Positions 7,479 to 35,709 of a stretch of 42,475 nt of DNA are shown piece after piece; position 1 is the stretch's first letter, and every line of letters begins with the position of its first letter. The notes beneath the pieces are model-generated. The model made no database searches, was not told where the DNA came from, and saw only the letters and a list, made by a program, of their open reading frames with translations. The position numbers and the translations under genes are program-made. Source of the stretch: a virus; the IMG/VR virus record IMGVR_UViG_3300025764_000008, positions 1 to 42,475 of that record. One strand, given 5' to 3'.

Positions 7479-7576
7479 CGTCTCTCACCTAATCCTTTCC
7501 TAATCCCTTTTGATTTGTTGGCAGCACCGGGGATTAGGTCCGGGGTCATGCGGGTAATTAAACCGCATCAGCTGCC
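7479..7576 (-). ncRNA. structured RNA leader, copy C (nuclease-associated pseudoknot RNA)
   Basis: Reading the minus strand: P1 GGCAGC (7571-7576) with GCTGCC (7520-7525); P2 ATGCGG (7563-7568) with CCGCAT (7548-7553); P3 CCGG (7540-7543) with CCGG (7527-7530). The P3 loop ACCTAATCC (7531-7539) pairs with either of two tandem repeats, 7499-7507 and 7487-7495. The second covers the ribosome-binding region and lies 8 nt before the start at 7478. Copies A (31670) and B (35616) have the same plan with different bases, so the pairing is supported by compensatory change. Confidence 0.8.
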
Positions 7577-7582
7577 ACACTC

Positions 7583-7600
7583 AGTATATCACAAATGAAG
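7583..7600 (-). promoter_or_regulatory. promoter of copy C, CTTCAT-N6-TATACT
   Basis: CTTCAT (7595-7600), six bases, then TATACT (7583-7588), on the minus strand. P1 of the RNA begins 6 bases after the -10, so the transcript should start at or next to P1. The same arrangement occurs before copies A and B and before the late operon. Confidence 0.7.
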
Positions 7601-7720
7601 AGCAGCAGTACCGGAATGTGGAGGCGTCCGTTACCATTTATATACAATAATGGTAACCATCTGAAACGGACTTGTCCCCAAATGAATACCTTTTCGGGGA
7701 CGACCACACTTTTGCGGGGT

Positions 7721-7748
7721 ACCATTTTGTTGAGGTCAACAATATGGT
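7721..7748. repeat. 28-bp near-perfect palindrome
   Basis: Half-sites of 13 bases (ACCATTTTGTTGA and its partner) around a GG centre, with one mismatch. Symmetry of this length suggests a dimeric DNA-binding protein; the par partner at 5863 or a repressor are candidates. The core TTGTTGA-GG-TCAACAA is perfect. Confidence 0.75.
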
Positions 7749-7954
7749 CGGGATATCGATTGGTTGGCGTCGACAAGACGATCGGGGCAACCCTTCGGAG
7801 ATACCGAACCCTTCAGAAAATCTTAAGGGTTGGCAACTGGTAAGGATTACTTGTGAGTTCGGTGCATTAACGTAGGTACTGCATACGTTCCCGCAGATAA
7901 TGTGCAATGAGCAGATGCAATGTGTATTAAACGCACAAAGGTATAATTTGCCGT

Positions 7955-11972: not shown

Positions 11973-12853
11973 ACGCTCAGGTCATAACAGACAACGGAGT
12001 CGAGAAGGAATGATTCGCCAGCAACGACCGCATCAAAAACGAACGAGGGGTAGGCGTTGGTATTGTCGCTTAACCAAAACATACTTATCGTTTGGGCGGA
12101 CGCAGAGCAGTCCACCGCGATTCCGTTGACGTAGCCCGTATCCTTGCTCCCCTGTGCAAGCACCTTCCGGCCAGCCGCTGCCGTGGATTTTACCAACCCC
12201 CCAAAGTAGTAGACATGTCCCGCAATGATTGTTGTGGCGATATTTGCCGCATATGGCGTAGCGGTCGTTACCATTTTCAGCGACCCCGTACCAACAAGGG
12301 GCACACCCGTTTCCCTTGTAATGGTTCCACCAACCCATCCCGTCACGTCTGTCTCAAACTCTCCGTTCGTGATGAGGTTGGTAAGGGCTCCATGGCGGGC
12401 AAGAGCGGCTAGGAATAGCCCGTAATAATCTATCCCAAGCGTTGCTCTCTGTGCCGCTGCGTTGGCATCATTGATAAGTTCACGTCCAGCAGCAGTACAG
12501 TCTATCTCTTCAATCGCTCCCGCGCCCGCACTAGAGCGCCCTAACACCTTATCTGTGACAGAGACATTATCGGTTTTCTTTGCAGCGATACTGTCCGCTT
12601 CTGCCGCGCTGATGTCGTGAAAGATCACCGCACCATTCAGATGGGTAGCGGCAGTAGAACCCTCGTACCCTCTCGTCACCGTCCATGTAGTTGTGCTGAC
12701 TGTCGTGACCAGCATGGCCTCCGTATCAATGGAAATAATGAAGGGAGCGGTAGGAAAAGATGCCTCTGACGTAACGGTGATACTCGTACCGCCAGTATCG
12801 GTGATAGCTGCGGCTAAAGTTGTCTGTGAAAAGTTGCGATGATTTATTGCCAT
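11969..12853 (-). CDS. tail fibre or appendage with carbohydrate-binding-like C-terminus
   Basis: The start MAINHRNF at 12853 is chosen; the longer frame begins inside the upstream HNH gene. 294 residues: N-terminal beta-rich segment (SITVTSEASFPTAPF, TRGYEGSTAATH) common in phage tail appendages, a middle part with ADSIAAKKTDNV and NDANAAAQRATLG typical of fibre shafts, then NLITNGEFETDVTGW with TGSLKM, resembling CBM4/9-type jelly rolls. Likely binds host surface sugars. Start overlaps the HNH stop (TAATG). Confidence 0.75.
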   Translation of the reverse strand: MAINHRNFSQTTLAAAITDTGGTSITVTSEASFPTAPFIISIDTEAMLVTTVSTTTWTVTRGYEGSTAATHLNGAVIFHDISAAEADSIAAKKTDNVSVTDKVLGRSSAGAGAIEEIDCTAAGRELINDANAAAQRATLGIDYYGLFLAALARHGALTNLITNGEFETDVTGWVGGTITRETGVPLVGTGSLKMVTTATPYAANIATTIIAGHVYYFGGLVKSTAAAGRKVLAQGSKDTGYVNGIAVDCSASAQTISMFWLSDNTNAYPSFVFDAVVAGESFLLDSVVCYDLSV

Positions 12854-13347
12854 TATTCCACCCCCATATAAGCAAACGCGGCGGCATTTATAGCATCCAT
12901 ATTCTTGCCAGTCCAAACGTTATGACGGATACTTTGGTGTATATCCTTCGGGATATAAATGACTCGTTCTTTGTCAACGTGATGCCCCTCGCAACCCTCA
13001 AACGATTGGTTTAGGGCAACGTATCCCAAAACTCTGCGTTTAGCTTGGTGTTTTCTGAATATCTCACTTTTTCTGGCGGGATGTTTAATCCCCCACGCCA
13101 ACTCGTCTTGGAAATATGCACCTTCTCTGCATTTCGGACAATACTTATTGCATCTTCCTGTTGGGACAAACGCCTCCCCGCACATAAGGCACGCCTTTGG
13201 TTTATATCCCACCAACCGTGCCGTCCACCATTTCTTTATTTGCTGGCGATGTACTCCGGGAGCACAATCAACACAATATTTCTGGCATCTGCCAGTTGGC
13301 ACAAATGTCTCACCGCATATAGAACAATGTTTGGGAGTAAAAATCAC
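12853..13347 (-). CDS. HNH homing-type endonuclease with two zinc-finger-like repeats
   Basis: GTG start at 13347. The 164-residue protein has two N-terminal Cys repeats of the form CxxCGExFVPTGRCxKYCxxC (about 7-28 and 54-75), then a C-terminal HNH domain EGCEGHHVDKERVIYIPKDIH. That domain is clearly homologous to the C-termini of the NUMOD3 proteins at 31764 and 35710, so DNA-binding modules have been swapped around one nuclease core. It sits exactly between two tail genes with short overlaps and has no RNA leader of the A/B/C type. Confidence 0.9.
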   Translation of the reverse strand: MIFTPKHCSICGETFVPTGRCQKYCVDCAPGVHRQQIKKWWTARLVGYKPKACLMCGEAFVPTGRCNKYCPKCREGAYFQDELAWGIKHPARKSEIFRKHQAKRRVLGYVALNQSFEGCEGHHVDKERVIYIPKDIHQSIRHNVWTGKNMDAINAAAFAYMGVE

Positions 13348-15402: not shown

Positions 15403-16344
15403 TTAACCTACGTGTGTGAGTTGAAACCGACCGACCCAAGGAAAAGAGCGGACGACACTAATGGACGGGATTGTGATCCACTCTGCGGTGGCTGCCGCCG
15501 CGCTGCCATAGGCCACCGCTACAAATACTCCATTACCATGGGTGGCTGAAGACCAATATTTAATTGATGGCATGGTTTGAACTGCCCACGTACTGCCATC
15601 CAAAGATGACGCAGAATCTGTGCTGCTCCAAGATGTTGCCACAAACATTCCATCACTATAGGTAACTGAATACCAAGCCGCAGTTGACGGCATAGTTTGA
15701 GCCGTCCACGTAATTCCATCTGGAGAAGTTGCAGCGGTCATGTAGTGAGAGTAGGCCACCACCACAAACATGCCGCCACCATAGGTAACTGAGTACCATG
15801 CGGCACTTGACGGCATAGTTTGAGCCGTCCATGTGACACCATCTGGTGATGTTGCAGAAGTTGTGTTTCCATAGGCCACCGCGACAAATACTCCATTGCC
15901 ATAGGCGACCGAAGTCCAGTTTGCACTTACTGGTAACGTTTGAAGCGTCCACGTAGCGCCATCTGAAGATGTTGCAGCCATTGCGCTGCCCCACGCCACT
16001 GCTATAAACATGCCATTGCCATAGGAGACTGCTTGCCAGCCAGCACTTGCTGGTAGTGTTTGAGCCGTCCACGTAATTCCATCTGGAGATGTTGCAGCAA
16101 TCGCTCCATAGTAAGACACCGCCACAAACATTCCGTTACCATAAGTAACTGAAATCCAATTTGCACTTACCGGCAATGTCTGTGCAGTCCATACAATACC
16201 ATCCGGTGATGTTGCAGCTTTGTTGCTGCCGTAGGCTACCGTTACAAATACCCCATTGCCATAAGTAACAGAATACCAGTTTGCACTTGACGGTAGGGTC
16301 CGAGCCGTCCATATTAGACTCATGCCGCTACCTATTAAACTCAT
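15403..16344 (-). CDS. seven-repeat beta-propeller receptor-binding-like protein
   Basis: 313 residues with seven tandem repeats of about 40 residues, consensus WTAQTLPxSAxWxSVTYGN then GxFVAVAYGS and AATSPDGIT. Seven copies fit a seven-bladed beta-propeller (BNR/Asp-box-like, with SxDG). Such propellers bind sugars or surface proteins, and the position in the fibre cluster suggests host recognition. The start MSLIGSG is followed by a second MSLIW. The ~25 residues after the seventh repeat (ISVVRSFPWVGRF) lie outside the propeller. Confidence 0.8.
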   Translation of the reverse strand: MSLIGSGMSLIWTARTLPSSANWYSVTYGNGVFVTVAYGSNKAATSPDGIVWTAQTLPVSANWISVTYGNGMFVAVSYYGAIAATSPDGITWTAQTLPASAGWQAVSYGNGMFIAVAWGSAMAATSSDGATWTLQTLPVSANWTSVAYGNGVFVAVAYGNTTSATSPDGVTWTAQTMPSSAAWYSVTYGGGMFVVVAYSHYMTAATSPDGITWTAQTMPSTAAWYSVTYSDGMFVATSWSSTDSASSLDGSTWAVQTMPSIKYWSSATHGNGVFVAVAYGSAAAATAEWITIPSISVVRSFPWVGRFQLTHVG

Positions 16345-31646: not shown

Positions 31647-31664
31647 CTTCATATCGTTTATAAT
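31647..31664 (+). promoter_or_regulatory. promoter of copy A, CTTCAT-N6-TATAAT
   Basis: CTTCAT (31647-31652), six bases, TATAAT (31659-31664). P1 of the RNA begins five bases later, at the expected start point. Same as copies B and C and the late operon promoter. Confidence 0.7.
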
Positions 31665-31669
31665 TGATA

Positions 31670-31763
31670 GGTGGCTAAGACAGCCTTATAAACTGTCTGA
31701 ATTCCAGACTCCCTTCTGGTGCCACCACAGTCAAAACAAGGGAGATAAAGGGAGTGTGAGACA
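31670..31763 (+). ncRNA. structured RNA leader, copy A (nuclease-associated pseudoknot RNA)
   Basis: P1 GGTGGC (31670-31675) with GCCACC (31721-31726); P2 AGACAG (31678-31683) with CTGTCT (31693-31698); P3 CCAG (31704-31707) with CTGG (31716-31719). The P3 loop ACTCCCTT (31708-31715) matches AAGGGAG at 31738-31744 and, with one more pair, AAGGGAGT at 31748-31755. The second repeat is the ribosome-binding site of the gene at 31764. Base changes against copies B and C keep every helix. Confidence 0.85.
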
Positions 31764-33919: not shown

Positions 33920-35634
33920 TGGATAACGTCATCGCTCGTTTTTCTTCTTCTCAAATAATCATACAAGCCCCTTTCAGCGACTTGGACACCTTGCGTTCTG
34001 TCCCCGGCTTGTCCTGGTCGAAGCCGAACAGGGCGTGGTGTGGAGATCTTTCGCCTTCTCTTGCTCAATCTCTCCTCCAGACTTTCAAGGGGCGCCTGTT
34101 GTGCAACGACGTTCCCCGCCTCAAAGCTTTAGCGGAACAGTCCGGCGAGACCGCCCGCCTCAAAGCTATGGGCGCGGATCTTCCCGATGTTCCGAACGCC
34201 CGCCTTGCTCCGTGGCCTCACCAGAAACTGGAATATTGGGCGATGGTTAAACAGCCGGCGCTCCTTGCATACCTCGGCCTTGGCACAGGTAAGACTGCGC
34301 CCGTAGTGTGGTATGTGCAGAATATGCACGTACTTCGTACGCTCGTTGTCTGTCCTCTTTCTGTCATCAATGTCTGGCTGTCGGAGTTTCAGAAACACGC
34401 AACGACGCCGGTAACGATTTGGCATCAGCATAAACTGTTTCCCGCTCCTAGTGGAATTATTGTCGTACCACTGGATAAAGGAAGCGTTACGCAGAAGAAT
34501 CAGACGATGATGGACGCTCTTACTTATGACGGCCTCGTTGTCATTGTTGTGAACTACGAGAGCGCGTGGAGACCGCCGCTTTCATCGTCTCTTTCTAAAT
34601 GGGGCTTTGACCTCTTGGTTATGGACGAGGGCCACAAGTTGCAGTCTCCCGGTTCCCGCGTTTCCAAGTATTTCCATTCGCTGGGCAAGACTGTCGCCAA
34701 GAGAGTTGCTCTGACCGGCACACCTTGTCCAAATGGTCCCTTGACAATTTATGGCCTCTACCGGGCACTGGACAGCGGCGTCTTTGGTACGTCGTTCGCT
34801 GTGTTCCGTGAGAAATACGCAATCATGGGCGGGTATATGCAGCATGAGATCATAGGATATAAGAACGTCGAGGAGTACAATCGGCGGTTCTATTCCATCG
34901 CCATCCACGCCGATCGCTCTGTCCTGACCCTCCCGGAAGCAACAACGATTCCGCGCACCTCTATTCTTTCTCCATCTGCGATGAAGACGTACCGCTCTTT
35001 GGAGAAAGATCTGGTAGCGCAGATTCAAAATGGTACGGTGACTGCGGCCAACGGGCTTGTGAAGCTTTTGCGCCTTTCTCAACTGACGGGAGGCTGGCTT
35101 TCTCCTGACGAGGATATTTACAACCCCGACAGAAAACCGCAGCGCGTGGACAGTGCGAAGCAAGAACTGCTTGCAGATGTACTGGATGATCTGCCGAAAG
35201 AAGAGCCTGTCGTTGTGTTCTACAAATATGTCCAGGACGCGGTTTCTATCCGTGAGGTCTGTAAAGAGCAAGGGCGGACGTATTCTGAATTGTCTGGCCG
35301 CGTGAACGAGCTGGCGGAGTGGCAGAAGAGTGGACAAGTGCTCGCCGCACAGATCGCGTCTGGCAGCGTTGGTGTAGACATGACGCGAAGTTGTTACGCG
35401 ATCTATTACAGTGCGACCTTTTCTCTGAGCGATTATGAGCAATCCCTTGCTCGTATTCATCGTCCGGGGCAAGATCGTGCGGTTACGTATATCGATTTGG
35501 TGATGTCCGGAACCGTCGATGATAAAATATATGCAGCACTTGCAAACAAGAAGAACGTTGTTGAAGCAATCTTGAAGGAACTCACGCCTGCTCTTCATTC
35601 AGAGTATAATGAAATGGCAGCTAGGGCGGCTTAA
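33919..35634 (+). CDS. SNF2/SF2-type helicase
   Basis: 571 residues: an N-terminal ~100-residue HARP/SMARCAL-like part (IIIQAPFSDLDTLRSVPGLSW), then GLGTGKT (120-126, Walker A), LVMDEGHKLQS (motif II), ALTGTPCPNG (III), and the second RecA domain with PVVVFYKYVQDA, SVGVDMTRSCYAIYYSATFS and QSLARIHRPGQ (VI). Typical of phage SNF2-like annealing or remodelling helicases. Its last codons (MAARAA) contain P1 and part of P2 of the RNA of copy B, so the element has fused with the gene end. Confidence 0.9.
   Translation: MDNVIARFSSSQIIIQAPFSDLDTLRSVPGLSWSKPNRAWCGDLSPSLAQSLLQTFKGRLLCNDVPRLKALAEQSGETARLKAMGADLPDVPNARLAPWPHQKLEYWAMVKQPALLAYLGLGTGKTAPVVWYVQNMHVLRTLVVCPLSVINVWLSEFQKHATTPVTIWHQHKLFPAPSGIIVVPLDKGSVTQKNQTMMDALTYDGLVVIVVNYESAWRPPLSSSLSKWGFDLLVMDEGHKLQSPGSRVSKYFHSLGKTVAKRVALTGTPCPNGPLTIYGLYRALDSGVFGTSFAVFREKYAIMGGYMQHEIIGYKNVEEYNRRFYSIAIHADRSVLTLPEATTIPRTSILSPSAMKTYRSLEKDLVAQIQNGTVTAANGLVKLLRLSQLTGGWLSPDEDIYNPDRKPQRVDSAKQELLADVLDDLPKEEPVVVFYKYVQDAVSIREVCKEQGRTYSELSGRVNELAEWQKSGQVLAAQIASGSVGVDMTRSCYAIYYSATFSLSDYEQSLARIHRPGQDRAVTYIDLVMSGTVDDKIYAALANKKNVVEAILKELTPALHSEYNEMAARAA
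35593..35610 (+). promoter_or_regulatory. promoter of copy B, CTTCAT-N6-TATAAT, inside the helicase gene
   Basis: CTTCAT (35593-35598), six bases, TATAAT (35605-35610), then P1 after five bases. The promoter also encodes LHSEYNE of the helicase, so it is under double constraint yet keeps the motif. Confidence 0.7.
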
Positions 35635-35709
35635 TTACCCGTCTGAAATCCAGACTCGCCTCTGGTGCTGCCACAATCAGAACAGGCGAGAAAGGCGAGT
35701 GTGAGACAA
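35616..35709 (+). ncRNA. structured RNA leader, copy B (nuclease-associated pseudoknot RNA)
   Basis: P1 GGCAGC (35616-35621) with GCTGCC (35667-35672); P2 GGGCGG (35624-35629) with CCGTCT (35639-35644, two G-U); P3 CCAG (35650-35653) with CTGG (35662-35665). The P3 loop ACTCGCCT (35654-35661) matches AGGCGAG at 35684-35690 and, with one more pair, AGGCGAGT at 35693-35700. The helicase stop codon lies in the P2 loop. ATG follows at 35710. Confidence 0.85.

Follow-up and report, generated by a model that had tools for sequence, protein, structure and literature searches.

The DNA analyzed here (the window) is an entire IMG/VR virus record, IMGVR_UViG_3300025764_000008 (42,475 bases), from a tailed phage that carries genes for terminase, portal, and head proteins; its helicase and terminase are only distantly similar to their counterparts in cultured phages. 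Three nuclease genes in the window are each preceded by a leader of ~95 nucleotides (nt), here called copies A, B, and C (Table 1). A preliminary description had reported three helices (P1, P2, and P3) followed by a pseudoknot in these leaders; reading all three confirmed the helices at their positions as well as P1-to-P3 distances of 28, 28, and 27 nt. Our results indicate that the leaders belong to an RNA family absent from Rfam, in which two strands placed in tandem farther downstream (d'1 and d'2) are each complementary to the loop of P3 (d), and the three strands covary with unusual clarity. Judging from the sequence, we think it reasonably probable that the leader controls translation in cis: d would pair either with d'1, leaving the ribosome site free, or with d'2, masking it.

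Recurrence and covariation of the leader RNA

Three copies from one phage are thin evidence for an RNA; what makes the case decisive is the set of ~26 further distinct copies in other records, out of ~29 distinct copies in ~20 IMG/VR phage records. The searches that found them used DNA patterns, nuclease proteins, a covariance model, and base pairing. Twenty-four were aligned by hand, and counts given below out of 24 refer to these; the remaining copies were found later (L047, L082/L083, L127:4999, L133:3629, and L171). The L171 copy came from a pattern scan that used no nuclease sequence, and there too an Endonuclease VII gene follows. All copies come from uncultured phages, many with common flanking sequence, so that the sampling is narrow.

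In an alignment of 25 distinct sequences, which was fitted to the structure (this favours pairing) and draws on related phages, standard pairs filled 96.2% of the helix cells, at least one compensatory (double) change was seen in 15 of the 16 pairs, and the covariation score was 0.63 compared with 0.24 in shuffles. When, as a control, the 3' partner was shifted by one to three columns, only 32–55% pairing remained. Despite the fitted alignment and the relatedness of the phages, this effect size leaves little room for doubt that the RNA structure is real. A full descriptor scan of 0.9 megabases returned the real copies and a few weak matches, with two matches in the shuffled control, which places the leader RNA far above chance. 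The earlier proposal of a selected RNA is thus borne out by homologues: the covariance model was built, further copies were searched for, and those found in other phage records carry compensatory changes in every helix. Thermodynamic stability was weak (z-scores of −0.1 to −1.8) and alone would not reveal the RNA.

The three-helix architecture holds in copies A, B, and C (with two G-U pairs in P2 of copy B), but P2 is dispensable, being absent from the L047 copy and apparently also from L127:4999. Conserved unpaired positions include TA or TG in J1/2, a GA that begins J2/3 (22/24 copies), and TCA in the linker (20/24).

The RNA had been described as unrecognized, and Rfam 15 at gathering thresholds agreed, with no match in the window (group I introns included) and, at the other loci, only a tRNA in one of them. 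Raising the limit to E values of 10 gave weak unrelated matches only, two of them around copy A. A hepatitis delta virus-like or group I ribozyme was rejected, as neither had an Rfam match and the leader topology fits neither. We found no description of this RNA in the literature searched, the coverage of which was partial, so that an earlier description elsewhere is possible; a term check of a 2010 list of 104 candidate structured RNAs likewise gave none. Among 50,697 records of cultured phages, the leader had no blastn match and two of the nucleases had no relatives, and Endonuclease VII genes in ~75 loci of other phages had no leader nearby. A single scan of genome contigs, aimed at bacterial hosts, gave two matches with neither a P3 nor a nuclease start, which we took as chance, and five pattern matches (L172, L174, L175, L176, and L178) proved to be chance on inspection.

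One loop with two tandem partner strands

The downstream pseudoknot of the preliminary description is confirmed, with the correction that the loop is complementary to two strands, 9–11 nt apart, rather than to one. In copies A, B, and C, d forms seven of seven Watson-Crick pairs with both. Across the aligned copies, d:d'1 is free of mismatches in 24/24 and d:d'2 in 22/24, and the three strands all covary over 17 distinct loop sequences. For these loops, the mean pairing score with the copy's own strand was 6.9 (d'1) and 6.6 (d'2), versus 2.7 and 2.9 with permuted strands, and the observed pairing was reached in none of 5000 permutations for either strand. The seven-base loop core follows the pattern CYYNNYY and its partners RRNNRRG; d' is therefore purine-rich at both ends, like a ribosome site. 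The end of d'2 lies 6–10 nt upstream of the start codon in all 23 scored copies. Differences between d'1 and d'2 are mostly A-to-G changes that retain a G-U pair with d, and in G018a the wobble positions differ between the two strands. The following base is A after d'1 and T after d'2 (23/24 copies each), and an additional closing A-U pair is possible only with d'2 in most copies. Predicted duplex energies are nearly equal, averaging −10.3 (d:d'1) and −10.2 (d:d'2) kcal/mol. Because the triad of d, d'1, and d'2 persists in the L047 copy, which has lost P2, and in L082, with its longer spacing, we regard it as the core of the element.

It could be argued that only d:d'1 is functional, as a structural or mRNA-stabilizing pseudoknot at the 5' end, with d'2 a homogenized tandem repeat that serves as the ribosome site only. 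This would fit the observation that mismatches occur only in d:d'2, as well as the expectation that the transcript's extreme 5' end is paired in P1. We nevertheless find such a division of roles unlikely, given that d'2 tracks d over all 17 loops and mostly keeps its pairing by G-U where it departs from d'1, and that many d'2 strands match the Shine-Dalgarno sequence poorly, so that ribosome binding alone would not select them. Diversification of d within a phage for orthogonality was also considered and gave no evidence (zero shared loops per phage, 0.53 expected, P = 0.57). Separately, we note a leader-like triad at L133:3629 (G018), in which ACCATAC and two GTATGGT strands follow a TATACT box and the open reading frame (ORF) behind has only 12 codons.

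Promoter-like sequence and gene context

A sigma70-like −10 hexamer with at most one mismatch lies 5–7 nt upstream of P1 in 22/24 copies, and TTGACN-like −35 boxes at a spacing of 16 are found in many. From the distance between the −10 box and P1, the transcript probably starts at P1, and the leader probably has its own sigma70-like promoter. A leaderless or short upstream ORF beginning at P1 was rejected, as it is not conserved and several copies have no start codon there.

The predicted start site also bears on whether the pairing elements function as DNA, such as an operator or a nuclease recognition site made up of direct and inverted repeats. The three strands are indeed repeats at the DNA level as well, and I-TevI is a known transcriptional autorepressor (a reference cited in PMC3014915). 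We consider a DNA site very improbable, however: all elements lie downstream of the predicted transcript start, both P2 and d:d' tolerate one-sided changes to G-U, which points to RNA, and the same architecture precedes unrelated nucleases.

The downstream nucleases fall into the Pfam families NUMOD3, HNH, HNH_5, and Endonuclease_7, so that one RNA accompanies nucleases of several unrelated families as well as a small number of other ORFs. The placement in front of nuclease genes, as first described, holds for all but about three copies but is not strictly limited to nucleases. At L127:4999 (G008), the leader precedes a 98-amino-acid (aa) ORF with an HEMFH motif and weak metallopeptidase similarity; at L140:9432 (G023), the ORF behind a full leader has 70 aa and no Pfam match and may represent a nuclease gene that has decayed or been replaced.

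With its variable 7-nt segment and its place beside a nuclease gene, the structured RNA might also bring to mind one that acts in trans, in RNA-guided nuclease activity or mobility, with the variable loop or the d' strands as guide. We judge this the most remote of the explanations considered: the variation of d is matched within the same RNA, the proteins are ordinary NUMOD3/HNH/Endonuclease VII proteins in which Pfam revealed no RuvC-like or TnpB-like domain, HEARO RNA had no match in Rfam 15, and the few copies before non-nuclease ORFs argue in the same direction.

Gene arrangement favours translational control in cis. Among leaderless relatives of the nucleases, 17/28 start within 20 nt of the upstream gene's end, compared with 0/8 of the leader-bearing ones (P ~0.0025); by position, leader-bearing nuclease genes stand alone, and many leaderless relatives would be coupled to the upstream gene. 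A fourth, HNH-like nuclease of the window (12853–13347, minus strand) is leaderless and lies inside the structural operon, with a GTG start nearly directly after the preceding gene's stop and an end that adjoins the following ATG, and it looks translationally coupled. Copy B overlaps the end of the helicase gene (ends at 35634), whose stop codon falls in the P2 loop. The last helicase codons are encoded by the promoter and P1/P2 of copy B, whereas a related helicase in G033 ends differently, which suggests that the leader-nuclease unit arrived together with its promoter. No clean empty insertion site was found, since G015 versus G032 and G033 versus copy C were too divergent for any boundary.

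Two further repeats were observed in the window. The intergenic stretch upstream of copy C (7610–7790) holds an inverted repeat, GGTTACCAT...ATGGTAAC, plus GGTATCTCCGAAGGGTTGC, and it recurs downstream of the nuclease in L007 (about 2240–2350). At 15506–16319, about seven tandem copies of a ~120-nt repeat (64–76% identical to the reference) lie within the ORF at 15403–16344 (minus strand).

Table 1 Leader copies A, B, and C, their elements, and the genes behind them.
Feature	Position	Strand	Detail
Copy A −10 box TATAAT	31659–31664	+	5 nt before P1; no convincing −35
Copy A leader RNA	31670–31763	+	P1 31670–31675/31721–31726, P2 31678–31683/31693–31698, P3 31704–31707/31716–31719; covariation
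Copy A loop d, ACTCCCTT	31708–31715	+	Inside P3
Copy A d'1, AAGGGAG	31738–31744	+	First partner of d, 7 Watson-Crick pairs
Copy A d'2, AAGGGAG	31748–31754	+	Second partner of d; ribosome-binding region, 9 nt before ATG
Copy A gene, NUMOD3 + HNH-like homing endonuclease, 172 aa	31764–32282	+	PF07460, 1.3e-17
Copy B −10 box TATAAT	35605–35610	+	5 nt before P1
Copy B leader RNA	35616–35709	+	P1 35616–35621/35667–35672, P2 35624–35629/35639–35644, P3 35650–35653/35662–35665; covariation
Copy B loop d, ACTCGCCT	35654–35661	+	Three-strand alignment
Copy B d'1, AGGCGAG	35684–35690	+	Three-strand alignment
Copy B d'2, AGGCGAG	35693–35699	+	10 nt before ATG
Copy B gene, NUMOD3 + HNH-like homing endonuclease, 227 aa	35710–36393	+	PF07460, 4.3e-20
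Copy C −10 box TATACT	7583–7588	−	6 nt before P1
Copy C leader RNA	7479–7576	−	P1 7576–7571/7525–7520, P2 7568–7563/7553–7548, P3 7543–7540/7530–7527; covariation
Copy C loop d, ACCTAATCC	7531–7539	−	Three-strand alignment
Copy C d'1, GATTAGG	7499–7505	−	Three-strand alignment
Copy C d'2, GATTAGG	7488–7494	−	9 nt before ATG
Copy C gene, Endonuclease VII family nuclease, 154 aa	7014–7478	−	PF02945, 2.8e-24

Proposed translational control

We propose that the leader would be the 5' untranslated region (UTR) of free-standing phage homing-endonuclease genes, transcribed from its own sigma70-like promoter. P1 would close a junction that presents the P3 hairpin, and the seven-base loop core would pair in cis with one of the two tandem strands. 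Pairing of d with d'1 would form an H-type pseudoknot that leaves d'2, in the ribosome-binding region, free, and translation would be on; pairing with d'2 would mask that region, and translation would be off. The masking itself and this ON/OFF assignment are inferred, as is any switching trigger. Since d'1 emerges first during transcription and the predicted energies of the two pairings hardly differ, the arrangement probably acts as a bistable switch or a limiter that holds nuclease synthesis low or timed, and the leader probably controls the amount of nuclease made.

Several observations weigh against this reading. Two copies (G005b and G035) have a d:d'2 mismatch, and many copies match the Shine-Dalgarno sequence weakly or match it best at the d'1/d'2 boundary. 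Some copies, copy A among them, have no evident −35 box, and a few precede genes that cannot be recognized as nucleases. With regard to folding, the knot-free minimum for copies A, B, and C differs from the proposed fold, and with a standard pseudoknot penalty the proposed fold lies below the knot-free minimum in only 4/24 copies. Knot-free folding neither supports nor excludes the mechanism, and minimum-free-energy folding is uninformative as evidence here.

A true riboswitch or protein-responsive operator would add an input to this scheme, with a ligand or protein at the junction and the conserved TCAAA linker stabilizing one pseudoknot. The conserved unpaired positions in J1/2, J2/3, and the linker are consistent with such an input, and an RNA common to unrelated nuclease families and a few other ORFs would be expected if the input, rather than the gene product, were shared. 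We regard this as improbable in view of the lack of an Rfam riboswitch match, a small conserved core in which P2 and its loop are replaceable or absent, and downstream genes that are not metabolic. A bolder combination, in which a two-state pseudoknot that senses a ligand or protein moves, as a portable unit of promoter and switch, between selfish nuclease genes that are unrelated and represents a new class of phage regulatory RNA, is an idea that we put forward only tentatively.

Returning to translational control by alternative pairing, the three-strand covariation is so clean that the two-state model is directly testable by mutation and rescue. Our observations suggest two arrangements for the selfish nuclease genes of these phages: coupling to an upstream gene, or an expression cassette of their own that unrelated nuclease families would share.

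Comparison with known RNAs

HEARO/IsrB RNA (Rfam RF02033) is a structured RNA beside an HNH nuclease gene. The leader also adjoins such genes but differs in having no Rfam match and no RuvC-like domain in the adjacent protein, in its length (~95 nt), and in serving as a 5' UTR. Pseudoknot riboswitches of the preQ1 and SAM-II type use the Shine-Dalgarno strand, in that a hairpin loop pairs with a downstream strand near the start codon. The leader loop pairs in the same manner, but the leader is unmatched in Rfam and its pairing strand is tandemly duplicated.

The nearest structural analogue in phages is the gene 32 leader of T4, T2, and RB69, whose single pseudoknot is bound by the gene's product, gp32 (PMC3014915). 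Both are pseudoknots in a phage mRNA leader upstream of the ribosome-binding site (RBS) and are linked to translational control; in our leader, however, the loop has two partners, the second one within the ribosome-binding region. Autoregulation of the gene 32 type by the downstream protein is unlikely, since the leader is shared by unrelated proteins.

By analogy, the nearest functional relatives would be the RBS-masking RNA structures of T4-type homing endonuclease genes, described at I-TevI, Aeh1 mobE and, by implication, T4 segB (PMC3014915). In both, a phage homing endonuclease gene has an RNA where its translation begins that restricts initiation or is predicted to do so: the leader lies at the start (d'2 ends 6–10 nt upstream of it) and contains a structure able to pair with the ribosome-binding region (covarying d:d'2, 0/5000 permutations). 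Unlike those structures, in which the start region is sequestered in an RNA helix, the leader is a P1/P2/P3 junction with a pseudoknot that has two alternative partners, and it is one RNA family that is shared by unrelated nucleases and carries its own promoter-like sequence.
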